From Cyanidium caldarium (lineage: Eukaryota; Rhodophyta; Bangiophyceae; Cyanidiales; Cyanidiaceae), in contig JANCYW010000009.1 in the NCBI GenBank assembly GCA_026184775.1, positions 248,001 through 312,000 of the forward strand: 64,000 nt of DNA. Direction: 5' to 3'. Below, piece by piece: positions 12,514-51,201 of the stretch. The notes under the pieces are model-generated. The model saw only the letters and a list, made by a program, of their open reading frames with translations. It made no database searches and was not told the origin of the DNA. Each line of letters opens with the position of its first letter. Positions within the stretch are counted from its first letter, which is position 1. A program made the position numbers and the translations under genes.

Positions 12514-13085
12514 CTGTCCGAGGCCGATGCGTCCACACTGCTCCTCGCGAACGACACGCCCAAACGCCGACGCGTTCTTCAAAGACGCCGACTGCCCAGA
12601 CACACCGTCGCTCGCAGTCTAGATAGCGACCGCTCGTCCGTTCGCTCTCGCCACAGTGGGTATGGGCCGTGCGCACCGACCGTGCGAGAGCCACCGGCCC
12701 GACGAACACCTGATGAAACGCCCGTCCTGGCCCGCTCCGACCCGACCATATACCGTGGCTGGAGATTTTCTTCGAGACGACTTGCTCTTAACGGGTGTTG
12801 CCCGCCGCCACGAGCAACATCCTCCAGGTCAGCCCGACGGCCCGACGGGACGGCCGTCCACACGTCCCGCAACGAGCGCCGAGAGGGCGCGCGCGCGCGC
12901 GCCGCGTCGAGAGCGCCGATGCGGCGCGCGATGTCGATGGCTGCGCGCGGGGACGCGTTCGGTGAGGTGCACACGCGCGCGCGTCCCTCATGGCGTCGTG
13001 ATCGATATTCTGGGGGTACGCTGAGGGAGAAGCGTGTGGTTGCCGGCGTTGCCGAGTCGGGGCGTGTGTGTGTGTGTGTGGTAGG
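12514..13085. other. Intergenic promoter region with Z-DNA-type and (GT)n repeats
   Basis: This 572 bp gap lies upstream of both NAA40 (leftward) and the rightward 919-aa gene. It contains an alternating GC tract near 12888-12905 and a (GT)n tract near 13064-13080, immediately before the start codon at 13086. No RNA gene was recognised. Confidence 0.45.
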
Positions 13086-15845
13086 ATGGGTGAGGTGTCT
13101 ATGTCGGAGTCGGAGCGGGGATCGGCCGGGCCGGGGGAGGGACGGGGTGCGGCTACGACGGCGGGAACGACGGACAGTGCGTTGTCGCGCAAGACCGAGG
13201 CGCTTCCGGTGCCGGTTCCCAACCGGAATGCGGTCGGAGTCGTGGCTGCTGGTGGTGTGTACGGCGGGTCGGACCGGTGGGGTGCGCCGAGCTGGTGGTC
13301 GTCGGCGTCGGCGTCGCCGTCGTCTTCGTTGGGCGCGGGCGCCCAGCATCTATCCCCGTGGGGCGGGCGCGAGCGGTTGTCGTGGCTATTGTCGCCAGTG
13401 ACCGGGGAAGAGCGCCAGGAGGGATATGTGGCGGGAGGTGGTGGTTTCGGCGGGATGGAGGAGGTGCGAGGTGCAGCGCGGCCGATGCGGGCGGCGCCGT
13501 GGGCGGCCCACCTGGGGAACGCGGCCGGCTCGGCGCCGTCGGCAGGACGTTGGCTGCCCACGGAACGGTCGATGGCGCCAATGGGGGCGCCGTATTGGTC
13601 AGCAGCAGGGACCAGCATGCCTAGTGGACGCCAGATGCCAGCGCCACACATTCATATGCCCACCGCTTATCCCCGGCCGCTCGCCAACACGGCCCATTCG
13701 GCACCGCCAGTGCCGCCGCCGCCGCCGCCCATGCCACATCACCAACCGCCGATGCCATGGACGGCTGGCGGCGAGTACGGCGCCTCGACGGGCGCCACTT
13801 CGGTGAGGGCGGTATCTGCGGCGAGCACGCCGAACTCGGCGTCGGCTGCCGTAATTGGTGCTTCCAGCCGGCTGTGGGATCGCCACGGCGCCTGCTTGCC
13901 GGAGATGCCGTCGTTGGTGCACTTTTATGACCACGACGGTGAGTGTATCCGCCGCGCGGGCAACTGCTTGGCCAACGGCCAGATCGAGTCGCTCGAAGCG
14001 CCGGCGGTCGACGACGAGCACGTCACCGTGTGGAATCCGGACAACGGCAAGACGGTGGCCGGCAATGCCGCACCGTATCGCCGCAACCTCAACATTTGGC
14101 TGGAGAAGAACCCCGGCTGGGTGGAGAAGTTCGATTCGGAGAAGAGCACCAAGCGTCAGAGCGCGGCGCGGCGCTCCAAAGCCGCGGCCAATGCATTTGC
14201 GTTGTTGTGCACCACCAACGGCCGCATCCGCGAGATACTGAAAGAGGTAGACCGAGCGTACGAGCGGGCCATGGGCGATGCTGTCGGAGAGGAAATGCCA
14301 TGGGAGGCGGCGGGACTGCGGACAGGCGGCAGCGGGGCGGTGAGCGAGTCGCCCACCGCCACCGCTCCCTCGTTGCGTGGCCCCGACGGCCGAGCGGCCA
14401 TCGCCGCAGCCTGTCTACGTGAATGGACCTCGGACGAGGTGGTGCGGCTGCAAGAGCTGCTGGTGCGGTATGCGGACGAGTTGGCCCAGGCGGGTGGCGC
14501 TTTGGGCAGCGATGATGGTGATGATGACGACGATGACGATATCATGGAAGACGGGTCGCAAGACGCAGCAGACGCGCCCGATACCGTCGAAGAGGGCGCG
14601 GTGTTCCCGCTGCCCCCACAGGAGCAGACTGCTGCGGGAATGAGCGAGCGCGGCCGATCACATTCGGAGACAGCAGCGCCGTCGGAGGCGCTGCCGCTGA
14701 GCGACAGCATTCAGCAAAGTCCGCTGGGCGCGTTGGTGACCGCCATGGATCTGGATGTGGGGAGCCCGCTGCCGACGCCAGCATCGCGACGGTCGGCGCG
14801 ACGAGCGTTGCCACCCGCCGACGAGTCGCCCGACCTCAGCGGCTGGCACAGTATATTGGAAACGCTGCGCAACAAGCCGCCGCGCTCGATCATCATACGG
14901 TCGCGCGCCCTGTTCGGCCGCACGTTGGCGGCGGCGGCGCAGCTGGGATCGCACCGGCCGATGCCGCCGGGCGGCACCCCCACGGCCGCGCCGGACAGCA
15001 GCGGCGACGTGACCCCGCCGTCCGCCTCGGCGTTGGCGCGCGAATGGGTGGACTGGCGTGCGGCACCGCCACCGTTGTCATCGCATGCCGCACCGCCGAT
15101 ATCAACGCAACCGCCGCACGCCCCGACGGTCTCCTCGTCTTCATCGTCGATGGCGCCGTCGCGGCGACAATCGCCGAGCAGCGCCGACCACCACCTATCC
15201 GGCGTCGCGGCGCTCCATCTCGGCTCGCACTCGTTGTCGTCCTCGCCCACCGCCGACACCTGGAGCCTGCAGACGACAGCGGCCGGTAGCGTCAGCGCCT
15301 CGTTGCGCGAGGAGCGCGTGACCGTATGGGAACCCGCAACCGGCCGCACCGTCTCCGGCAATGCGGCGCCGTGTCGTCGCAACGCAGAGCAGTGGCTGCG
15401 CGATCACCCCGGCTGGTGCGTGAAACACGAAGACGAGCTGAGTGCGGCGCGGCGTCTGCGCTATCATCGTCTGCGGGAACAACAACAGCAACAAGTGGCG
15501 GGTTATCGGCCGCCGCAGAGCCGACCCTACGCGATGCCGGAAGCAGCGCGCCCGGACGCCGCAACGCTGTGGCGATCGGCACCGGATCACAACAACACCT
15601 TTCTGTACGCCTCGCCGGTGTCACATCCGCACGGCATGCCGGTGGCAGCGTCGCCGGCAGAGAGCGTCTGTATCGAGGGTTTGTTGTTGATGCGTCATGG
15701 GAGCAGCGGCAACAGCGACGGCGCGACCACTCCCACGGCTGCAACGCCAACTGTGCACGCCTCGGCATCGGCGGCAGCAGCAGCAGCCAAACGGCCACCG
15801 CGGCCGCCGACTGCATCCCATTCGGAGGCCACCACACCGCGTTGA
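13086..15845 (+). CDS. Large low-complexity protein with a duplicated W-x-P...G-N-A-A-P motif
   Basis: About 919 aa, product not recognised. Most of the chain is Ala/Pro/Ser/Gly-rich and probably disordered, with an Asp run in the middle (DDGDDDDDDD). Two copies of one motif stand out, residues about 313-345 and 745-777. Shared residues are V-T-V-W-x-P-x-x-G-[KR]-T-V-[AS]-G-N-A-A-P-x-R-R-N-x-x-x-W-L-x-x-[NH]-P-G-W. The first copy is followed by a basic Ser/Lys/Arg region (STKRQSAARRSKAAA), the second by ARRLRYHRLREQQQQQ, each compatible with DNA or RNA contact. I believe similar short motifs occur in assorted plant, algal and oomycete nuclear proteins, but I cannot name a family. Starts at 13086 or 13101 are both possible. 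Confidence 0.7.
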   Translation: MGEVSMSESERGSAGPGEGRGAATTAGTTDSALSRKTEALPVPVPNRNAVGVVAAGGVYGGSDRWGAPSWWSSASASPSSSLGAGAQHLSPWGGRERLSWLLSPVTGEERQEGYVAGGGGFGGMEEVRGAARPMRAAPWAAHLGNAAGSAPSAGRWLPTERSMAPMGAPYWSAAGTSMPSGRQMPAPHIHMPTAYPRPLANTAHSAPPVPPPPPPMPHHQPPMPWTAGGEYGASTGATSVRAVSAASTPNSASAAVIGASSRLWDRHGACLPEMPSLVHFYDHDGECIRRAGNCLANGQIESLEAPAVDDEHVTVWNPDNGKTVAGNAAPYRRNLNIWLEKNPGWVEKFDSEKSTKRQSAARRSKAAANAFALLCTTNGRIREILKEVDRAYERAMGDAVGEEMPWEAAGLRTGGSGAVSESPTATAPSLRGPDGRAAIAAACLREWTSDEVVRLQELLVRYADELAQAGGALGSDDGDDDDDDDIMEDGSQDAADAPDTVEEGAVFPLPPQEQTAAGMSERGRSHSETAAPSEALPLSDSIQQSPLGALVTAMDLDVGSPLPTPASRRSARRALPPADESPDLSGWHSILETLRNKPPRSIIIRSRALFGRTLAAAAQLGSHRPMPPGGTPTAAPDSSGDVTPPSASALAREWVDWRAAPPPLSSHAAPPISTQPPHAPTVSSSSSSMAPSRRQSPSSADHHLSGVAALHLGSHSLSSSPTADTWSLQTTAAGSVSASLREERVTVWEPATGRTVSGNAAPCRRNAEQWLRDHPGWCVKHEDELSAARRLRYHRLREQQQQQVAGYRPPQSRPYAMPEAARPDAATLWRSAPDHNNTFLYASPVSHPHGMPVAASPAESVCIEGLLLMRHGSSGNSDGATTPTAATPTVHASASAAAAAAKRPPRPPTASHSEATTPR

Positions 15846-18401: not shown

Positions 18402-18680
18402 TCAACACCTGCTGTGCGATATGTCCTGCATCCGCACGGCTGTCTCCTGTCCGTGTACCGTATCGCCCTCGGCGTGATGAAGAGGCGGCCGTTTCGACGA
18501 CCGCGCGTGCGCGGAAGCCGCGCGATCGATGCGCGCATCGCTGCGCGACGGTGGAGGTTTCGGTTCGGGGCAGGGCGACGGTCTCCATAGCGACCGTTGT
18601 GGGAGAAGTGGCGGTGCCGCGTGAGGAACACAACAGGCGCCAGCAGTTCGTTCGAGGGTGCACACCGACAACAGTGGACG

Positions 18681-20219
18681 ATGTGGGCAGGTCGATCGGC
18701 GGTAGGACGCCTTGTGGGGCGCTGTTGGCGGGCGGTGGATGGGGTGCGGGATCGGTCTGCGATGCGGACGGCGGCGGAACGGGCGATGCTGACGGGTTGG
18801 CGGACGGTACGGACGCGATGGGGTGTGGCTTTGGGAGCGCGTCCGGTGTCGGAAGTGCCGTTGGCGGCTATGGCGGCGACGCGACTGCGAGTGGAGCAGT
18901 TGGGTTGGCGGCGTGATGGATTGGCGTCGACGACCGGTGGACAGGGTTGGGGACGGCCGATGCGCCGTTACGCGGCCACTTCTGCGCACCCAAAGGCGGC
19001 TGCCAACGCCGAGGCGGTGCAACTGGTGTCGGTGCCGACTATGGGGGAGTCGATCACCGAGGGCACCGTGGTGGCGCTGTTGAAACAGCCGGGTGATCCC
19101 GTCGAGGAGGATGAAGTGGTGGTGCAGCTGGAGACCGACAAGGTGACGGTGGACGTGCGCTCTCCGGCGGCGGGGGTGGTGCGGGAGGTACTGGCGGCTG
19201 AGGGTGATAACGTGGAGGTCGGTGCTGGTTTGTTCAAGGTGGAGGTGGGCGCCGAGGCCGCTGCACGTCCGCGACCGAAACCGGCCAAGGAGTCGGAAGC
19301 CGCCGAGTCCGACGATCGGCCGGCGGCGGCATCCATGGATCCGCCAGAGGAGCCGGCACCGACGTACGCGACACCGCCACCGCCGCCACCCGATGTGGAA
19401 AAGGGCGAAGAGCACGCCGAGGCGGCGGCCGCGCAACTGAACGGGCGTTCGGTGGTGCAGCGCGGCTCGGCGGCGGCAGCGGCCGGCCAAGCCATGCTGC
19501 AGACGGACACCTTTGGCGAGCGCCGCGTGCCCATGAGTCGCATGCGTCGTCGCATCGCCGAACGATTGAAGCAGGCGCAGAACACCGCCGCCATGCTGAC
19601 CACCTTCAACGAATGCGACCTGTCCAGCCTGGCGGAGATGCGCTCCAGCTTCAAAGAGTCGTTCGAGAAGCGCTACGGCACCAAACTCGGGTACATGAGC
19701 GCGTTCGTCAAGGCGGCCGCCATCGCCCTGGAGGAGCAGGCCGAGGTGAACGCGCTGATCGACGGCAACGACATTGTGTACCGCGACTATATCGACATCT
19801 CGGTGGCGGTGAGCACCCCCACCGGTCTCATGGCACCGGTGTTGCGCGGCGTGGAGAACATGAGCTTTGCCGACATCGAGCGGCAGCTGGCGGACTTTGG
19901 CAAACGCGCCCGCGACGGCCAAATCCAGTTGGAGGAGCTGCAAGGCGGCACCTTTACCATATCCAACGGCGGCGTGTTCGGCAGTCTGCTCAGCACACCC
20001 ATTATCAACATGCCGCAGTCGGCCATTCTGGGCATGCACGCCATCCAGCGCCGTCCGGTCGCGGTGAACGAGCAGATCGTGGTCCGGCCCATGATGTACC
20101 TGGCGCTCTCCTACGACCATCGCCTCATCGACGGCCGGGAGGCGGTCACCTTTCTGCGGCGCATCAAGGCGCTTATCGAAGACCCCAGACGCATGCTGGT
20201 GGGCGTGTACGGATTCTGA
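18681..20219 (+). CDS. DLST: Dihydrolipoamide succinyltransferase (2-oxoglutarate dehydrogenase E2)
   Basis: About 512 aa. Order: mitochondrial-type presequence, one lipoyl domain with the lipoylated Lys in [10 protein letters not shown], a long Pro/Ala/Glu linker, and the catalytic acyltransferase domain ending with [20 protein letters not shown], which contains the active-site His and Asp. The linker has no peripheral-subunit-binding domain, as expected for eukaryotic DLST and unlike PDH E2. The enzyme transfers succinyl groups to CoA in the TCA cycle. ATG 18681 ([15 protein letters not shown]) gives an Arg-rich N-terminus; an upstream in-frame ATG at 18597 cannot be ruled out. Confidence 0.95.
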
Positions 20220-20292
20220 ACGCCTGTGCTTCTGTGGGTACCCCAGCAGTGTGTAGCTGAACCTCCCTCCCCGAATACAGTTGGCGTCCACC

Positions 20293-20298
20293 AAAAAA
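20293..20298 (-). terminator. RNA polymerase III terminator of the permuted tRNA gene
   Basis: A run of six T on the minus strand lies 11 nt after the last nucleotide of the tRNA 5' half, the expected place for Pol III termination. Confidence 0.75.
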
Positions 20299-20308
20299 GC
20301 ACGGCCCG

Positions 20309-20425
20309 TGGGAATCTTCCATGTTGCCACTACACCAGCAGCGCGGTCGCTCTGCGCTGCCCGGGAATCGTGGGGGGCGCTCCACAGGGTACTCGTACCC
20401 GCAGCGCGAACCCGGGGCAGAAGAA
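20309..20425 (-). tRNA. trnG-CCC: Permuted tRNA-Gly(CCC) gene with an additional intron in the T-loop
   Basis: Read on the minus strand, the 3' half comes first. It starts with T38 (20425), then anticodon-stem TCTTC, variable loop TGCC, T-stem CCGGG and loop TTCG; after a 38-nt intron (20406-20369) it resumes with ATT, T-stem CCCGG, acceptor GCAGCGC and discriminator A (20353). An 8-nt spacer (20352-20345) follows. Then comes the 5' half: acceptor GCGCTGC (20344), D-arm TGGTGTAGTGGCAACATG, anticodon stem GAAGA and loop TTCCCA ending at A37 (20309). Acceptor stem (7/7), anticodon stem (5/5) and T-stem (5/5) pair perfectly, and the 71-nt mature form matches tRNA-Gly-CCC. The permutation joint is at the canonical intron site 37/38. 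The T-loop intron contains a perfect hairpin (GGGTAC/GTACCC) and splits the B box. Confidence 0.9.
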
Positions 20426-20570
20426 GACTCCGCGGCATGTATTAGACCCGTGGCCACCGAACAAGCTATAAAGCACCGCGGCGCGACCGTCTCGGGTGCG
20501 CGTTTCGAGTCCCAGGTGGTGCCTCTCCCACCATCACTTCTCCCGTGTTCCGTCGCCGCCATTTCGCTTC

Positions 20571-21401
20571 ATGTTTCCTGCTGGCAAGCGTCCGAGTGTG
20601 CAGGGCGTGTCGGTGCTGCGGCGTTACGAGCGGGAGTTGTTGGAGGTGTTGGGCAAGGGCCGCTCCGCGCTCCACATCCTGCAGCGCGGCGGTGGCGCGG
20701 CGACGGCGGATGAGTCGCTACGGGCGGCACAGATGGCGCTGCAGGTAGCCAACGACATCTTGGCGCAGATGGAGTTGGAGGTGCGTACTTGTGAGGGCGA
20801 CGAGGATGAGCGGGCGGCGGCGGACACCCTGATGGACACCTGTCGGCAGTTGGTGGCGCGGTATCGGCGCGAATTGGGCACCACGCGCAGTACCGCACTG
20901 CGGGCGCAACTGTTGGGCAACGGACACGGAGCCTCGTCCGCAGTACCGCTGCTGAACGGGGAGGCGGCAGCGGCGGCGGCGGCGGCAGACGGAGAGCCCG
21001 GGGCGGACGCGGCGACGGTGTCCCGAGGGCAGCGACGTCAGATGACCGACGCCAGCACCAAGTTGCTCAAGGCGTCGCGACAACTGCAGGACTCCAAGCG
21101 GGTGCTGACGGAGACGGAGCACCTCGGTGCGGATATTCTGATGGATCTCGAGGCTCAGGGGCAGACGCTGGAAAAGTCGCGCGATCGACTCCAGGGCACC
21201 GACGGCCGATTGCAGACTGGTCGCGGCCTTATCTCTGCCATGGAGCGCACCGAGCGTGCACGGCGCTTGCTGTATATCGGGCTAATCGGTGTGGCCATTT
21301 TGGTGCTGGCGGTGGTGCTGGGGCGACACTTTTGGCCGGCAAGCAAACCGGCGGCGGTGAGTGCGGCGCCGGGTACCCTCCAGAATCACACCAAACCGTG
21401 A
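20571..21401 (+). CDS. VTI1: VTI1-type Qb-SNARE
   Basis: About 276 aa. An N-terminal helical region (YERELLEVLGKGRSALHIL and two further helices with internal low-complexity Ala) precedes a SNARE motif: LLKASRQLQDSKRVLTETEH, then LGADILMDLEAQGQTLEKSR, then DRLQGTDGRL. A single C-terminal membrane span follows (LLYIGLIGVAILVLAVVLG). The ET-E-x-(I/L)-G-x-x-I-L spacing around the zero layer is that of VTI1. VTI1 works in Golgi-to-endosome and vacuole fusion, the same pathway as VPS11 and VPS4 in this window. ATG 20571 follows a TATAAA-like sequence at about 20466. GOSR2/membrin is the alternative but fits less well. Confidence 0.8.
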   Translation: MFPAGKRPSVQGVSVLRRYERELLEVLGKGRSALHILQRGGGAATADESLRAAQMALQVANDILAQMELEVRTCEGDEDERAAADTLMDTCRQLVARYRRELGTTRSTALRAQLLGNGHGASSAVPLLNGEAAAAAAAADGEPGADAATVSRGQRRQMTDASTKLLKASRQLQDSKRVLTETEHLGADILMDLEAQGQTLEKSRDRLQGTDGRLQTGRGLISAMERTERARRLLYIGLIGVAILVLAVVLGRHFWPASKPAAVSAAPGTLQNHTKP

Positions 21402-24919: not shown

Positions 24920-25179
24920 CGCGGGCGCTCCGACACACGACGGAGTGTGGGCGTTTCCAGAGCAGTGTGGGCGCTGCGCTGAGGGTAAGAACCAAAGAAG
25001 ACGCGAGGATGCTTTGCAGTAAGCTCCCCCTGGGATTCTCACGGTCTTCCCTGCACCCACCTCACCGAGTGACGCGTCCAGGTGACGGCGTGCCGGGCTG
25101 CCAGGAGCCGCGACAACGGAAACGGTAGCGATGACCGCGAGGGAGCCACGCGCGGCGCCAGACACGACGGAGCCGAACT

Positions 25180-26448
25180 ATGACAAAGTTACCCCGCATG
25201 GCGAACGAGCGTTTCGAGTGGGCTGGACCTGCCGCGCGACCTTCGCCTCCCTCTACCGTGGACATATCGTTTCCAAGTCTGCCCACATTCCTTGAGCACA
25301 GCAACCGCTGCCGCATGCCCGGCGGTGAGCCGCCGAACGCTGCTGCCGCAGATGATGCACAGGGCGAACACCGGCGGGGAATAGAGAGCTACACCGACGC
25401 GTTCGACGCATGGGCGAGGGCAAGAAACGAACTGGAGCAGCAGTTGCGCACCCGCGAACAGCAGCTGGCGGCGGTGCAGCGGCTGCTCAGCGAAAAGCAA
25501 CGGCCGAACGGTGACGCGATTCGGTTCAGTTTGGCGGAATTGTCGACGGCACAGGGCAAGCTAGAGGCGGAACGTGGGGTGCTGCGAAGAACGCTGGTGG
25601 AGCACGAGCACCAGCGACCGCGGCCAACGGCTGCGCCCAAGTTGCCGTTGGCGGAAATTGACCGAGTACTGGGCATTGTGGGCAGCGAGCGCAGTGCTCA
25701 CGATGGCGGTGACGAGGGGCCAGAACCGGCCGGCGCCCAATCGCCGACGACACTCGCGCTGGCACAGCTGCACACGGAGGAGGTGGCTGCGCGGTTTGTC
25801 GAGACGCGGGAGACGGTTCAGGCAGCGCTGCAGGTGGCCCAAACCATGTTCAGTGCGCGCAGCACGACAGATGGGAAGGACGATGGCACGGAGGGTGCGG
25901 TCGGCGCCGAGTACACGGTCATGCTACCCGATATGGATGCGGCGAAGCTGGCACAGGCTCCGTCGCCTTGGCCGCGCATCGGTCTGCAACACCTGCAAGC
26001 GGCACACGGCAAGACGGCCGCGCGGCTGCACGGCGAGTACGCCGCCATTCTGCAGCCGGATGTGCGTACACCGTTTCAGAGCGTGGACGATGTGTGGAAC
26101 CGGCTGCTGCCGTATCACCTTTTCTACGGCCAACTGGCGCCGGACCAGCAGCAGCAAACCGTGAATGCAGCTGAGCTGTCAAGGGCCGATGCCAAGGGGC
26201 AACAAGAGCAGCCCGGTGAGACAACGCCGCAGACGGTGTCGCGCCTGACGGTGCTGGAACAACGTCTCGGTCGATATCTGGAGCGGGTTGGTGACTCGGA
26301 GGCCTCTTGTCAGCTGCTCGTCGATCAAGCGGCGCTACAGGGGAGTCGAAGGGAAGCACACGGTGTGCCGAGCGCCGCCGCCGAGGCAGTGCGGGAATCG
26401 CAGTATGTGGCGGCCGGGAAGCAGGTACCTGCGCCCGCGCTGCCCTGA
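25180..26448 (+). CDS. GLTSCR1-domain protein (putative SWI/SNF subunit)
   Basis: About 422 aa. A segment near residues 275-330 (LHGEYAAILQPDVRTPFQSVDDVWNRLLPYHLFYG) matches the conserved GLTSCR1 (BICRA) region, whose core is ...P-D-x-x-T-P-F-x-S-x-x-D-x-x-x-R-L-L-P-Y-H. In animals this domain marks non-canonical BAF complexes, and plant BRIP1/2 carry it in BRM-containing complexes. The rest is coiled coil (residues about 75-115) and low-complexity sequence. The start is uncertain: ATGs at 25180, 25198 and 25315 are in frame. Nuclear function is inferred from the family. Confidence 0.65.
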   Translation: MTKLPRMANERFEWAGPAARPSPPSTVDISFPSLPTFLEHSNRCRMPGGEPPNAAAADDAQGEHRRGIESYTDAFDAWARARNELEQQLRTREQQLAAVQRLLSEKQRPNGDAIRFSLAELSTAQGKLEAERGVLRRTLVEHEHQRPRPTAAPKLPLAEIDRVLGIVGSERSAHDGGDEGPEPAGAQSPTTLALAQLHTEEVAARFVETRETVQAALQVAQTMFSARSTTDGKDDGTEGAVGAEYTVMLPDMDAAKLAQAPSPWPRIGLQHLQAAHGKTAARLHGEYAAILQPDVRTPFQSVDDVWNRLLPYHLFYGQLAPDQQQQTVNAAELSRADAKGQQEQPGETTPQTVSRLTVLEQRLGRYLERVGDSEASCQLLVDQAALQGSRREAHGVPSAAAEAVRESQYVAAGKQVPAPALP

Positions 26449-28024: not shown

Positions 28025-28308
28025 GTTGCCGGCGGTTTCGGACGAATCTCGACACACGCTGCGTGCGCAACACCAACGCCAGCAACTGCAACCGCAGACC
28101 CGGGGGTGGGCAGCGGAGGTTCGCCAGTCGCTCCGCGGAATAACGGCCACTTGCGGCGGTGCCGATTTGGCGCCAACAAATTCGTAACGGTTCGATTTCG
28201 GTCCGTTTCCCCAAGCGCCCATCTGGAGCCCGCAGACGACTGCCCGACCCGGGTGCGGGGGCAACCAGCGTTTTCTTGTACAGCCACTTTGCAGTGTCCA
28301 TTTTCTGC

Positions 28309-30018
28309 ATGTACAGCACGGGCCTGAGAGTTATCGGGCAATTTCTGTCACGGGAGGTAGGGAGCGGTGCCCTCGCCCAGGTCAGCAATTTCGGCGGGGC
28401 CACTCCGTTTCTCCCCAGACTGCCATCCAGCGCCCGCCGTTTCCAAGCGCGTCGCCTGAGCGCCCAGTCCAAGGAGCGCGCGGGAGACAACGTCCAGTCG
28501 AGGAACGCTGCACTTGATTCCGCACCCTCGGCAGCGTGTACAGAGGCCGATGCGGCCGAGCGCGTACGGGCGATCCGTTTCGCCAAGCAGGCGCCAGCGA
28601 CGTTGGTGTTTACGGTATCGAACCGGCCGGGCGCCCTGAAGCAGGCGCTCGATGCGCTCGAGAACGAAGGCGTGAATATTCTGAAAATAAGGAGCGGGCT
28701 GGCGCCGGCGTCGTCGCTTTCGGATAACACGCACGAGATCACCGCCGACGTAGAGTTGGCAGCCGACCATGGCTCGGTGGCGGCCGCCCCACCAGCAGCT
28801 GGCTTGTCCGGCGCCCTGCGCACCGTGTCCAACAGATTGACACAGCTGGGCGCCCAGGTGACCGTGCTGGTGTCTCGCTCTGAGCGGCGGCCGAGGCAGC
28901 GCACGCGCGCCCTCGGCGAATCGAATGCCGCGCCCGCGGCGGATGCGGCGGCGCCGGTCACCACGCCGCAAGCCGAGCACACGGCGCCCTGGTTTCCGCG
29001 CCGCCTCTCCGACCTCGACCAGTTCGCTTCGCGGTGCCTGCAATATGGCGCCGAGCTGGACGCTAACCACCCCGGTTTCTCGGATCCAGAGTATCGAGCG
29101 CGGCGCGCGCAAATCACCCGCAACGCCGCGCTGCACAAGCACGGCATGCGGCTGCCGACGGTCGACTATACCGAGCAGGAGACGGCGACGTGGCGCACCG
29201 CGTACACCGAGCTGGCCAAGCTCCGGAAAACGCACACCAGTGCGAGATACCAGCACATTTTTCCGCTGCTGGAGCGCGAGGTTGGGTTTGGCCCGAACCG
29301 GATCCCGCAGCTGCAAGAAGTGAGCGACTTTTTGCGCGAGTGCACTGGCTGGACGCTGCGCCCGGTGATGGGACTGCTGTCGCCGCGCGACTTTCTCAAC
29401 GGCCTCGCGTTTCGGGTGTTTCACTCGACGCAATACATTCGCCACCACTCACGGCCGCTGTACACGCCCGAGCCGGACGTGTGCCACGAGCTGCTCGGGC
29501 ATGCGCCCATGTTGTGCAACGAGTCGTTCGCCGATCTGAGCCACGTCATCGGACTGGCATCGCTGGGCGCCAGCGACGAGGATATCGAGCGACTGGCCAA
29601 GTGCTATTGGTTCAGCATCGAGTTCGGCCTCTGCCGCGAGCCGCGAACCGGAGAGGTGCGCGCGTACGGAGCAGGATTGCTTTCGTCATACGGCGAGTTG
29701 CAACACTGCCTGAGCGATGCGCCAGAGAAGCGCACCTGGGACCCATTCGACGCAGCCAAGCAGGCCTACCCAATCACCGAGTATCAGCCGCTGTATTACG
29801 TGGCCGACTCGCTGGACAGTGCCACCGAGAAGTTGCGGATTTTCTCCGAGACGCTGGAGCGGCCCTTCAGCGTCCACTACAACGCCTACTCGCAGACGGT
29901 GCATGTGTTGGACGAGGCGGCCAAGCTGGCCAAACTGACCGGCAATATGCGCACCGAGATCAACGCCCTGTCGCGGGCGCTCCTCCGGTTGGAAGCAACG
30001 CGCGAACATGCTCCATAA
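28309..30018 (+). CDS. PAH: Pterin/folate-dependent aromatic amino acid hydroxylase
   Basis: About 569 aa. An organelle-type leader (MYSTGLRVIGQFLSR..., Arg/Ser-rich) is followed by an ACT regulatory domain (ATLVFTVSNRPGALKQALDA...) and the catalytic domain. The iron ligands are visible as the two His of DVCHELLGHAPML and the Glu of FSIEFGLCRE; FAGIRSGL-type and RPFSVHYNAYSQTV segments follow. Animal PAH converts phenylalanine to tyrosine with tetrahydrobiopterin; plastid homologues in moss, conifers and green algae use folate. A plastid or mitochondrial form is inferred. The 3' end overlaps the convergent kinase gene by 59 bp. Confidence 0.92.
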   Translation: MYSTGLRVIGQFLSREVGSGALAQVSNFGGATPFLPRLPSSARRFQARRLSAQSKERAGDNVQSRNAALDSAPSAACTEADAAERVRAIRFAKQAPATLVFTVSNRPGALKQALDALENEGVNILKIRSGLAPASSLSDNTHEITADVELAADHGSVAAAPPAAGLSGALRTVSNRLTQLGAQVTVLVSRSERRPRQRTRALGESNAAPAADAAAPVTTPQAEHTAPWFPRRLSDLDQFASRCLQYGAELDANHPGFSDPEYRARRAQITRNAALHKHGMRLPTVDYTEQETATWRTAYTELAKLRKTHTSARYQHIFPLLEREVGFGPNRIPQLQEVSDFLRECTGWTLRPVMGLLSPRDFLNGLAFRVFHSTQYIRHHSRPLYTPEPDVCHELLGHAPMLCNESFADLSHVIGLASLGASDEDIERLAKCYWFSIEFGLCREPRTGEVRAYGAGLLSSYGELQHCLSDAPEKRTWDPFDAAKQAYPITEYQPLYYVADSLDSATEKLRIFSETLERPFSVHYNAYSQTVHVLDEAAKLAKLTGNMRTEINALSRALLRLEATREHAP

Positions 30019-43710: not shown

Positions 43711-45150
43711 TCAGGCGGCACGCTGGGCCAGCTGATAAAACGCGCGAACTGTGTAGAGGAACGAGCCGACGGCGGCACTCAGGCCGATCGCGTAGACGAC
43801 CGTGTCGAGGCGTTCGCGAACGCCGCCGCCGCCGCCGCCGAGCCAAGCGCTCGGCCATCGTTTTCGTCTCGATGGCGCTGCCGGCTCGGCATCCGCGCTG
43901 GCGGCCATGCGTGCGGCCACCACGTGCGCTCCGCGCAGGCCGAGGTCTTCGGCCAACACCACGCGGACCGGAATGCGCGCCAACACCGGGCTGACGCGAC
44001 CCTTGCTGCGGAAGCGCTCCATAAAGTCCGACTTTCCGGTCGACAGCCACTCCAAGTTCTTGGGCGCGATGCCGCCGGTGATGTACAGGCCGCCAAACGG
44101 CAGATACTTGAGGGCCACGTTGCCGCATTCAGAGCCGTACGCGTCCATCATGATTTTCATGGCTTGCGAGCACAGGGCGCACTCGTAAGCGTACTTGGCG
44201 ATGGCCGCGGCTCCGTCCGCCGCCTCCAGGATCGCCTCGTCGATTCGCGGCGTAACCTTGTCCGGGAACGCCTGACGCAGAAACTCGTACACATTCACCA
44301 GACCGCGACCGCTGACAATGCGCTCCACGGAAACGCGGTTGCCGCTCTCGCTAAACTTGTGCTGCAAAAAGAGCAACATATCCGTCTCCAACTCGGTGGT
44401 GGGCGCAAACTCCACGTGGCCGCCCTCAGTGGGATACGCATCGTAACCGAACTGCAACGACGATGCGGGTGGGCCGGAGTTGTGGGCTGCATCCAACGCG
44501 TTCGAGTTTTGCTGCTGGCGCGTGCCGCCGGCAGGTGAATCGCTCAACGCAGATGCCGACAGCGTCAAGTAACACTCGCCCAATCCGGTTCCGGCGCCCA
44601 CGCAGGCCATCGGGGCGCCGGCCACGGGCTCCCCGGCTTGCAACAAATAACACTCGTTGCGCTCATCCAGCGTCAGCAGTCCGTAGCCGTTGGCCACAAA
44701 ATCGTTCACAAACCGCGCCTGCCGTACGCTCAGCGCGTCGCGCAACTCGGCCGCGTCCAGAATCCACTGCTTGCGGTTCGTGAAATCCACCCGGTCGCCC
44801 GTGACCGGTCCGGCCACCGCAAAACACACCGACACGATCAGATCGCCGCCACCCACCAGCGACACCCCCGATTCGCGAAGAAACGTGTGCACCAGATCGT
44901 GAAACTGCTCAAAGTCGTCGTTACGGTACGCCGCCCGGTGCACACACGCCTGCTGCGTCGGATCGCTGGCCATCGACGCATCGTACAACGCCATCCGCGC
45001 ATTGGTGCCGCCGATATCCCCAGCCACCAACAGCTTCCGCATAGGCACTTTCGGGATAGAGTCCCGGTGCGCCAGGAGCCCACGCTCGATGCAGGGCGGC
45101 AGGCGCTCGCGGAGAGCGCCCGTGCAGTTGTCCCGAACGGCGTTGCACAT
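43711..45150 (-). CDS. GLK: Bacterial-type glucokinase with a C-terminal membrane anchor
   Basis: About 479 aa from ATG 45150 (443 aa from ATG 45042). The phosphate loop LLVAGDIGGTNARMALYD, the segment VCFAVAGPVTGDRVDFTN, FVNDFVANGYGLL, the adenosine-site VGAGTGLGECYL, EGGHVEF and GGLYITGGIAPKN identify the ROK-independent bacterial GlcK (COG0837) family, which phosphorylates glucose. The last 35 residues hold a hydrophobic span (TVVYAIGLSAAVGSFLYTV) after a low-complexity Gly linker, so the protein appears tail-anchored; ordinary GlcK ends soon after the GG[I/V]A region. Anchoring at the outer mitochondrial or plastid membrane is a guess. Confidence 0.9.
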   Translation of the reverse strand: MCNAVRDNCTGALRERLPPCIERGLLAHRDSIPKVPMRKLLVAGDIGGTNARMALYDASMASDPTQQACVHRAAYRNDDFEQFHDLVHTFLRESGVSLVGGGDLIVSVCFAVAGPVTGDRVDFTNRKQWILDAAELRDALSVRQARFVNDFVANGYGLLTLDERNECYLLQAGEPVAGAPMACVGAGTGLGECYLTLSASALSDSPAGGTRQQQNSNALDAAHNSGPPASSLQFGYDAYPTEGGHVEFAPTTELETDMLLFLQHKFSESGNRVSVERIVSGRGLVNVYEFLRQAFPDKVTPRIDEAILEAADGAAAIAKYAYECALCSQAMKIMMDAYGSECGNVALKYLPFGGLYITGGIAPKNLEWLSTGKSDFMERFRSKGRVSPVLARIPVRVVLAEDLGLRGAHVVAARMAASADAEPAAPSRRKRWPSAWLGGGGGGVRERLDTVVYAIGLSAAVGSFLYTVRAFYQLAQRAA

Positions 45151-45315
45151 CGAATCAGAGGACGTCACGCGCACGCATTCGGTCACACAAGGGATCAGTC
45201 TGGTGGGGCGTTGCGTGCGAGGCTCGTTCCGGTGCTCCGACTTGACCACGGTGATCGCGTCGCCAACCGAAACAGCACCCGTCGGTCACGCCACTGGCAG
45301 GCGTTGTTGAGCAGT

Positions 45316-48310: not shown

Positions 48311-48672
48311 GACCGTTGCGGTTACGGCCGAGCGCGCCCGTGAACGTCGGCGAGTGGCGCGGGACAAGGCGCGGCCCACAACGACGACGTCTCCGCTGTC
48401 GTCAGCACCTCGCGGCCCCCAGATGAAAGCGTCAGCGTCCGCAACCGCAAAGGCGACTCGCTGTCACGTATCTCCTGCTCCAAAACGTCAAGCACTAGTG
48501 CCTCGAGCCTACCAGACGCCCGGGACAGGCCCTCAGCATCGACAGTACCTCTGTCCGCGCTACCGCTGAAAACGGCCCGTTGCCGCACCACTCGTCATCC
48601 GTGCCCGCCGAGACAGCATTTCGCGCGCGCGCGCGCGCTGTCTCGTTTTCGGGCGGCGCGGCTGCGGCCGCG
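48311..48672. promoter_or_regulatory. Divergent promoter region with (CG)n hairpin
   Basis: 362 bp between VPS4 and the ABC permease. GAGACAGC (48610-48617) and GCTGTCTC (48635-48642) form a perfect 8-bp inverted repeat around a loop made of alternating CG, a potential cruciform or Z-DNA element 30 bp before the permease ATG. Confidence 0.5.
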
Positions 48673-51201
48673 ATGGGGGAAGGCGGTTCGCGGAGGGGTC
48701 AAGGGTGCCCGCCCGATGCGCCGCTGCAGCCAGGTATGATCATATCCGGGGCAGATCCGCACGGGAATGCAAGTGAATGTTTTCGGAGGAGATTTCGTGT
48801 GGCTTTTCTGGCGCCGTGGGGGAGGCAACCTTGCCGACGAAATGACGTGAAGCAACCCACTGAAGCGCGGAGGTGCCGGGCGTTCCGTCTGTGGGCGTGC
48901 TCGCTCGTGTCAGGACGAGAGGTCGTCCCGTGGCAACGGCTTTCGGGTGGAGGGCAAAGCGCTCTCGTCAGCAACGCCGCACGATATCGACGTCGACGGC
49001 AACACCGAGCGCGCCCCGTCACCTGCCTGGCCGATACGAGCAACTCGCCCAGCGGCTGGGGGGATCAGGCTACGCCAACGCCTCCTCGCCCTCCTGGGAA
49101 TGACGCGACACTGACGCGACGATTGGCACTGCCTAGCCTGAGTAGCTGGGCGGTGCGGGATGTGCTGGCGTTGGTAGCACTGTTGGCGGTGGTATACGCG
49201 ATGGCAAGCACCTGCTCCCGTGCCGTGGGCATGCGGTACGACGCGTCGATTGTGATTTCGTCGAGCGCGGCGGTGTTGCCATCGTATGCGCTGCAGTCGC
49301 TGACGCGCATTGTGGTAGCGTATGGGATATCGCTGATCTTCTCGCTGGTGTACGCGTACATCGCCTACCGGGCCACGTTCGCCGCCCAAATCCTGTTGCT
49401 GGCGATCGACGTGTTACAGTCCATTCCGCTGCTGGCGTTTGTGCCGTCGGCGGTGCTGGGCCTGATCGCGCTCTTCCCCGGACAGCGGCTGGGCGTGGAA
49501 TTGGCCGCCATTCTGCTGCTGTTCACCTCGATGGCGTGGAACATGCTGCTCGGTTTTTATCAGTCGCTGATATCCATACCACGCGACCTGGACGAGGCGG
49601 CTCAGGTGTTCCGGCTGTCAGCGTGGCGGCGCTTCTGGTTGTTGGAGTTGCCGCATGGCGCGTTCTCGCTGGTGTGGAACTCGATCATATCGGTGGCAAG
49701 CGGTTGGTTCTTCCTGATCAGCATCGAGAGCTTCTCACTGGGGCCGGGCCGGGAGTATCGGCTGCCGGGACTGGGCAGTTTTTTGGCCACGGCAGCGGAT
49801 CGCGGTCAGATGCGATCGGTGTCGTTTGGCCTGGCGACGGTGGTGGCGGTGATCATTTTGGTGGATTTTCTGGTGTGGAGGCCGCTCATCGTTTGGTGTG
49901 AGCGATTCAAGATGTCGGCGGCATCGGCCAGCGCCGCAGCCGACGAGAAGCGCACCCCGGCAGGCGGCACCGCGGCTGCGCCAGTGCCTCGGGAGAAGCG
50001 TGTGCAACAACAACAACAGCAGCAACAGCGGGGCAATAATCTGACCGGCCGACGCCGGACTCGGGCGACGGTGGTGCACCCTAGTCGCGTGTTCGATTTC
50101 CCCAATGCGTGGAGCTTGGCACATGCCCCGACGCTCCGCACCGAGTTTATCGACGATCAGGAAGACGAAGCCGTGGACGGCATGGTCGACGACGTCGCGG
50201 AACGCAACCTGAACAACACGCATCAGAGCGCCGTGTTCGCGTACTTGCAGCGATCGCCGCTGATGCGCCAACTGACACGGCGCATGCTCCAACCCGGCTG
50301 GGAGGCGCTTCTGAATCTGGATCGCCTGTGGGTGCCGCAGCGGCAGGCGCGGCCGATGTCAGGCGGCGGCGCCCTGTCGTGGCCGCGCATTGCCGGGGCG
50401 TGGGCTCAGATGCGGCCATTGCGACAGGCGCTGCTATTCGCCGTCCGCGCGCTACTGGCCCTGCTCACGCTGGCGGCTTCGCTGTGGGCCAGTCATCGTG
50501 CAGCTCGCGTGCTCAGCGCCATACCGCCGTCCGCGTGGGTGCACATCGTGGTGGGCGCGGCGTACACTTTTGGGCGGGTCTTGGCGGCGCTGGGCATGTC
50601 GATGCTGTGGACGGTGCCGGTCGGGGTGGCGATTGGGCGGTCGCCAGCGCTGGCCCGCACGCTGCAGCCGCTGGTGCAGATCGCCGCGTCAGTGCCGGCC
50701 ACCGCCATTTTCCCGTTTCTGCTACTGGGACTGGCGCGCCTGGGCGGACCCGGGCTGCAGATCGGGTCGGTGGTGTTGATGATGCTCGGCACCATGTGGT
50801 ACGTTCTGTTCAACGTGATCGCTGGTGCGTCGGCGATCCCGGCCGATTTCTGGGAAGTCGACGCCGTCTACAATCCACCGACGGGCCCGCACTGGCGGCG
50901 CTTGTGGCAGCGATGGCGCCTGCTCATCCTGCCGGGTATCTTTCCGTATCTGGTCACCGGCATCGTGACCGCCGTGGGCGGCGCCTGGAACGCCAGCATC
51001 GTCAGCGAGTACGTGCAGTTTCAGGGTACCACGCTGCAGACCATCGGACTCGGCGCCATCATATCGGACGCGGCGGCGCGCGGCGACCTGGCGATGTTGT
51101 TGGCGGGCACGCTGGTGATGGCGGCGCTGGTGTTGCTGACCAACAAATTCGTCTGGTCGCCGCTCTACAAGTTGGCCCGAGAGCGATTCTCTCTGAACTA
51201 G
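48673..51201 (+). CDS. Duplicated ABC-type anion transporter permease (two BPD_transp_1 domains fused)
   Basis: About 842 aa from ATG 48673 (an alternative ATG is at 48736). After a basic, Ser/Gly-rich leader of about 150 residues come two permease units. The first (from WAVRDVLALVALLAVVYAMA) carries the cytoplasmic EAA loop as DLDEAAQVFRLSAWRRFWLL. A Gln-rich linker near residue 445 separates it from the second (from LLFAVRALLALLTLAASLWA), whose EAA loop is degenerate (ADFWEVDAVY). This double-permease layout is that of prokaryotic COG4986 proteins related to nitrate/sulfonate/taurine permeases. No ATPase or binding-protein gene is nearby. A plastid or cell-surface location and horizontal origin are inferences. 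Confidence 0.82.
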   Translation: MGEGGSRRGQGCPPDAPLQPGMIISGADPHGNASECFRRRFRVAFLAPWGRQPCRRNDVKQPTEARRCRAFRLWACSLVSGREVVPWQRLSGGGQSALVSNAARYRRRRQHRARPVTCLADTSNSPSGWGDQATPTPPRPPGNDATLTRRLALPSLSSWAVRDVLALVALLAVVYAMASTCSRAVGMRYDASIVISSSAAVLPSYALQSLTRIVVAYGISLIFSLVYAYIAYRATFAAQILLLAIDVLQSIPLLAFVPSAVLGLIALFPGQRLGVELAAILLLFTSMAWNMLLGFYQSLISIPRDLDEAAQVFRLSAWRRFWLLELPHGAFSLVWNSIISVASGWFFLISIESFSLGPGREYRLPGLGSFLATAADRGQMRSVSFGLATVVAVIILVDFLVWRPLIVWCERFKMSAASASAAADEKRTPAGGTAAAPVPREKRVQQQQQQQQRGNNLTGRRRTRATVVHPSRVFDFPNAWSLAHAPTLRTEFIDDQEDEAVDGMVDDVAERNLNNTHQSAVFAYLQRSPLMRQLTRRMLQPGWEALLNLDRLWVPQRQARPMSGGGALSWPRIAGAWAQMRPLRQALLFAVRALLALLTLAASLWASHRAARVLSAIPPSAWVHIVVGAAYTFGRVLAALGMSMLWTVPVGVAIGRSPALARTLQPLVQIAASVPATAIFPFLLLGLARLGGPGLQIGSVVLMMLGTMWYVLFNVIAGASAIPADFWEVDAVYNPPTGPHWRRLWQRWRLLILPGIFPYLVTGIVTAVGGAWNASIVSEYVQFQGTTLQTIGLGAIISDAAARGDLAMLLAGTLVMAALVLLTNKFVWSPLYKLARERFSLN

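Follow-up and report, generated by a model that had tools for sequence, protein, structure and literature searches.

A permuted tRNA-Gly(CCC) gene split by a T-loop intron, probably nuclear and from a Cyanidium-like red alga

The window, as we call the whole 64,000-nucleotide stretch of DNA analysed here, carries on its minus strand, at 20425-20309, a tRNA-Gly(CCC) in permuted order, the 3' half standing ahead of the 5' half. With a probability of about 0.85, we regard it as a working nuclear permuted tRNA gene with an additional T-loop intron, from a Cyanidium-like red alga and orthologous to two genes of Cyanidioschyzon merolae. The combination of a permutation with a T-loop intron is already known from C. 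merolae, and the gene described here is a further example of it.

Anatomy and detection of the gene

Read along the minus strand, the gene opens with the first part of the 3' half (20407..20425, tRNA positions 38-57), which contains nucleotide 38, the 3' strand of the anticodon stem, the variable loop, the 5' strand of the T stem and the start of the T-loop. The second part of the 3' half (20353..20368) supplies the end of the T-loop, the 3' strands of the T and acceptor stems and the discriminator A73, and is separated by a spacer of 8 nt (20345..20352) from the 5' half (20309..20344), which comprises the acceptor, the D arm with its A box (TGGTGTAGTGG), the 5' strand of the anticodon stem and the anticodon loop to A37, including the anticodon CCC. 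The limits of these three tRNA parts follow from the sequence and from ARAGORN applied to the joined letters, and those of the spacer from the sequence. Downstream of A37 lie a trailer of 10 nt (20299..20308) and a run of six T (20293..20298), the putative RNA polymerase III terminator, all on the minus strand. The initial annotation had described the reversed order of the halves and the 8-nt spacer, and both hold base for base; the 37/38 junction, the T6 that follows and the 38-nt T-loop insert that splits the B box, all named there, likewise agree with the sequence.

Once the 71 nt are reordered, the acceptor (7/7), anticodon (5/5) and T (5/5) stems pair as had been claimed, and so does the D stem (4/4, with one G-U). 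The signature bases U8, A14, G15 with C48, G18G19, U33, U54U55C56 and A73 can all be read from the sequence. A14 and A73 are conserved tRNA bases. U8, R15:Y48, G18G19, U33 and U54U55C56 are also reported as conserved in tRNAs (PMC3978253). The motif TCTTC occurs twice, the second copy overlapping the 3' strand of the anticodon stem three bases upstream of the copy used in our model, which gives a 4-nt variable loop.

On the upstream side, a TATA-like box (TATA within TTTATAG, 20467..20470, minus strand) lies 45 nt ahead of the 3' half and no other TATA begins on this strand from 20380 to 20600; the window holds 58 TATA on both strands, against an expectation of 0.027 per 60 nt. The spacer lacks a terminator, and the upstream TATA-like box and the downstream T run are both present, as is expected of type II permuted tRNA genes.

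In genomic order, ARAGORN finds no tRNA gene in all 64,000 bases, and Rfam returns neither a match at the gathering score in the whole window nor, within the 1,101 bases from 19800 to 20900, any tRNA hit with an E value of 10 or below, just as had been expected of ordinary tRNA scanners. When the 71 nt are reordered and the insert is left out, ARAGORN calls tRNA-Gly(ccc), in agreement with the identity first proposed. Ordinary scanners overlook permuted genes, so algae that have them can seem to lack part of their tRNA set.

We also described the arrangement as a permuted-tRNA grammar, with a loose A box, a 7/7 acceptor, a spacer of 1-80, U33, a TTCRA T-loop with an optional insert of at most 60 nt, and 5/5 T and anticodon stems, G-U pairs being allowed. 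Applied to the window in both directions, it yields a single gene, in three rows that correspond to the possible split positions, and it finds nothing in any of 150 dinucleotide shuffles; a simpler pattern matches once in the window and in none of 100 shuffles. Since both were composed after the candidate had been seen, they show how rare the arrangement is but do not serve as blind tests. It is nonetheless extremely improbable that the locus is an assembly artefact or a chance juxtaposition of two unrelated tRNA pieces: while the case is based on a single sequence, the acceptor (7/7), anticodon (5/5) and T (5/5) strands are complementary across the permutation, a pattern recovered in 0 of the 150 shuffles, and an equal arrangement has been published for C. 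merolae (PMC3978253).

The T-loop intron and predicted splice-site folds

The two ends of the 38-nt T-loop intron share the letters CG, so that a split at 55/56, 56/57 or 57/58 is equally possible from the sequence; as delimited by the grammar and by bulge geometry, the intron would span 20408-20371 of the minus strand if cut at 55/56 and 20406-20369 if cut at 57/58. We favour 55/56, the position that best suits a bulge geometry and that is known from C. merolae. Two helices are possible within the intron, GCGCU:AGCGC and GGGUA:UACCC, and the 55/56 geometry combines the former with a bulge of three nucleotides (T54-T55-C), the central pairing GGG:CCC and a second bulge (CA-C56). This bulge form, which has three central pairs only, reaches -16.8 versus -20.6 for the more stable T-stem form. 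The idea that the insert is an unusually stable hairpin was rejected, given that, with a few flanking bases, its fold energy is lower than the mean of 300 shuffles by roughly one standard deviation (z -0.99); for the fold energy of the T arm the value is z -0.39 against 300 shuffles.

At the other joint, the predicted end of the leader (20426..20431, minus strand) consists of GGAG (20431-20428) and then UC before the 37/38 cut. The GGAG can pair with U32-C35 (GGAG:UUCC), with 3-nt bulges on each side, in a predicted bulge-helix-bulge, but a slipped pairing through the upstream TCTTC is the more stable of the two (-13.5 versus -7.9 kcal/mol). In the minimum-energy fold of the full precursor 7 of the 21 cloverleaf pairs are retained, at an energy little better than that of 300 shuffles (z -0.49), and the mature 71 nt fold with the acceptor, anticodon and T stems formed and the D stem absent.

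The search for bulge-helix-bulge folds at both joints that the initial annotation had proposed thus came out mixed: relaxed pairings are possible at each, but competing folds are more stable in the energy model. As folds compete and energies are close to those of shuffles, these motifs amount to a possible pairing and not to strong evidence, and we regard the splice-site folds predicted at the two joints as weak.

The energetic weakness of these motifs, together with the competing slipped anticodon stem, would fit a decayed or unexpressed relic, in which the two tRNA halves persist and the tRNA is no longer made. We hold this to be very unlikely, as against it stand four intact stems, intact invariant bases, and a TATA-like box and T6 where they are expected. 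As judged from these letters, the locus is probably still a source of normal glycine tRNA.

Precedents and a possible pathway

A review of permuted tRNA genes collects 34 of them in its Table 1, seven with an intron; a T-loop intron is given for only two of the 34. Both encode tRNA-Gly(CCC) in C. merolae, have their junction at 37/38 and combine a spacer of 7 bp with an intron of 13 nt at 55/56 (PMC3978253). The C. merolae entries trace to Soma et al. 2007 and 2013, and spacers of permuted genes are said to range over 1-74 (PMC3978253). The initial annotation had rightly pointed to C. merolae for permuted tRNA genes as such; it cited that alga for permutation only, but the union of permutation and T-loop intron is not new either, being found in two genes there.

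The likeness to these two genes extends to the isoacceptor and its anticodon, the type II permutation, the 37/38 junction, a very short spacer (7 in C. merolae, 8 in our gene), a T-loop intron at 55/56, which in our gene is one of three possible positions, and a TATA-like box upstream with a T run downstream, which in C. merolae are described for most permuted genes, the box lying within 50 bp (PMC3978253). They differ in the length of the intron, 13 nt as opposed to 38 in ours, in the GC-rich host of the latter, and in number, two genes in C. merolae and one in the window; processing is reported for the C. merolae genes and predicted for ours. It is from the likeness in isoacceptor, junction and spacer, and from a compatible intron position, as set against the published table, that we infer orthology.

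By analogy with C. merolae, RNA polymerase III would start at the upstream TATA-like box and stop at T6. The review suggests that C. merolae tRNA genes are transcribed from an upstream TATA box because the A box and the B box there are inverted or interrupted, and further reports, for the permuted genes of that alga, a circular intermediate, an order of steps and aminoacylation of the resulting tRNAs (PMC3978253). As to the T-loop intron, one passage has it removed ahead of processing at the 37/38 joint and another before the spacer is cut from the circle, both citing Soma 2013, so that the passages of the review differ between an intron that leaves first and one that is present in the circular intermediate (PMC3978253). 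In the precursor of our gene, once the T-loop intron has been spliced out, the same machinery would cut the leader and trailer at 37/38 and join the ends into a circle; RNase P and tRNase Z would then remove the 8-nt spacer, and CCA would be added.

Another gene of C. merolae, tRNA-Ile(UAU), resembles this order in that its T-arm intron is reported to be out before the anticodon-loop step, and is unlike the gene described here in not being permuted and in carrying introns in the D-, anticodon- and T-arm (PMC9602550). In precursors of that tRNA that still hold the T-arm intron, U55 is not modified by C. merolae Pus4 (PMC9602550), which suggests by analogy that the same constraint may apply to our tRNA-Gly(CCC).

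A 3' half preceding the 5' half is also found in the green-algal and nucleomorph genes of Ostreococcus, Micromonas and Bigelowiella natans and in those of Auxenochlorella, which were found later (PMC12633428) and stand outside Table 1; within the table, 20 of the 21 green-algal and nucleomorph genes have the 37/38 junction (PMC3978253). Unlike our gene, those in Table 1 encode Ser, Leu, Cys, iMet, Arg and Asn tRNAs and have no T-loop intron, and the review describes green algae as almost devoid of tRNA genes with atypical introns (PMC3978253). The permuted tRNA genes of Thermofilum pendens share with ours the coexistence of a permutation and a separate intron within one gene, but they are archaeal, with the junction at 59/60 and the intron at 37/38.

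Genomic setting, host and age

The tRNA gene sits in the gap between two plus-strand genes assigned by Pfam, one for a 2-oxoacid dehydrogenase acyltransferase (lipoyl acyltransferase; ORF 18591-20219, ending at 20219) and one for a SNARE (first Met at 20571). A minus-strand ORF (18402-20441) spans it; a location within coding sequence is unlikely, given that this ORF has no Pfam match and that the acyltransferase ORF, which faces the greater part of it, finishes at 20219, short of the tRNA. In the window, 49 ORFs reach a length of 300 aa or more, 38 of which were scanned against Pfam (one of them from its first Met), the other 11, which overlap, being left out; at E limits of 0.001, or 0.01 for one batch, 28 of the 38 gave a match, three of these below the curated cut-off only. 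Among the matches are sets of domains from eukaryotic and photosynthetic genes: a Miro-like GTPase, a Vps4-like ATPase, eL19, a FAN1-like nuclease and glutamyl-tRNA reductase. Many domains are near-complete in a single ORF, such as Biopterin_H (1-330 of 331), GlutR_N (1-151 of 151) and 2-oxoacid_dh (4-231 of 232), which indicates that introns are rare in the window; its mean GC content is 65% (16 tiles). Both properties are consistent with, and not specific to, the nuclear genome of Cyanidium caldarium, which is related to C. merolae; for that genome, 65.7% GC, 8.73-8.79 Mb, 4,870-4,930 genes and 44-46 introns are reported, the GC contents of C. merolae and Galdieria partita being 55.0% and 37.6% (PMC13353863). 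A second paper also reports fewer than 50 introns in Cyanidium (PMC9812998).

The gene could be just as genuine, intron included, and belong to some other GC-rich alga, green or red but not cyanidiophyte, and would then be either convergent with the C. merolae gene or far older than it. Micromonas, a green alga, and Porphyra, a red one, are GC-rich as well, the best PDB matches of eL19 appear, as we take them, to be from land plants, and in the tests run the window proteins did not separate red from green, all of which count for such a host. Permuted genes with 37/38 junctions do occur in green algae (PMC3978253, PMC12633428), but the 19 permuted genes listed for green algae in Table 1 of the review include no tRNA-Gly and no T-loop intron, tRNA genes with atypical introns are said there to be almost absent from green algae (PMC3978253), and the GC content and intron poverty of the window come close to the Cyanidium values (PMC13353863). 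We therefore consider another host unlikely, and a Cyanidium-like red alga remains our preferred reading.

If the host is Cyanidium, the permuted and T-loop-split gene would rather probably predate the split between Cyanidium and Cyanidioschyzon/Cyanidiococcus, with one ancient origin and stable inheritance since; this divergence is dated to about 0.3 billion years (PMC13353863). The length of the intron would then have shifted between 13 and 38 nt while the double disruption was kept. For a host outside the Cyanidiophyceae, the double disruption of one and the same isoacceptor would have arisen twice or come from a far older ancestor. The host looks like a second genus with a permutation plus T-loop intron, one earlier case having been found, and a comparison of neighbouring genes and introns across the Cyanidiales would make it possible to test how old and how stable scrambled tRNA genes are. 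We found no description of a permuted tRNA of Cyanidium in those parts of the permuted-tRNA and Cyanidium genome literature that were accessible to us, and the word tRNA is absent from the main text, as available, of one Cyanidium genome paper (PMC9812998).

Several other genes of the window deserve mention. A protein with a GLTSCR1 domain (25135-26445, plus strand) and one with two BRK stretches (13002-15842, plus) occur together in it, both domains being known from chromatin-remodelling subunits. At 28144-30015 (plus), a biopterin-dependent aromatic amino acid hydroxylase (E 5e-151) is encoded in what is a photosynthetic eukaryote. A glucokinase-family protein of PF02685, a family presumably bacterial in type, is found at 43714-45285 (minus) in this eukaryotic window, and a 900-aa ORF at 48499-51198 (plus) has two stretches that match BPD_transp_1, a binding-protein-dependent transport permease domain that we take to be of prokaryotic or plastid type, in a eukaryotic nuclear setting.

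Beyond the window, an exact glycine-specific pattern had no match in a prokaryote genome collection. In viral contigs, a pattern that joins the end of a T arm to an A box hit 20 loci, one of which, L007 (3760-4056; IMGVR_UViG_3300049048_000035), has a 7/7 complementary acceptor and was again the only one found with a stricter pattern. We rejected it as an instance of the same arrangement, since its ARAGORN model is an unusual tRNA-Leu and not a glycine tRNA. The region lies beside 10 ARAGORN tRNA genes and contains two tRNA-like 3' halves; a 5' half comes no more than about 10 nt after each, with complementary acceptors of 7/7 and 6/7. On the doubled stretches ARAGORN builds unusual tRNA-Leu(cag) models, of which the second lacks U33. 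The element TTTTRGGWTCRTTKCAGCA occurs three times nearby and also at seven other loci. The arrangement had no match in an annotated phage collection, and these halves may represent permuted or recombined phage tRNA genes.
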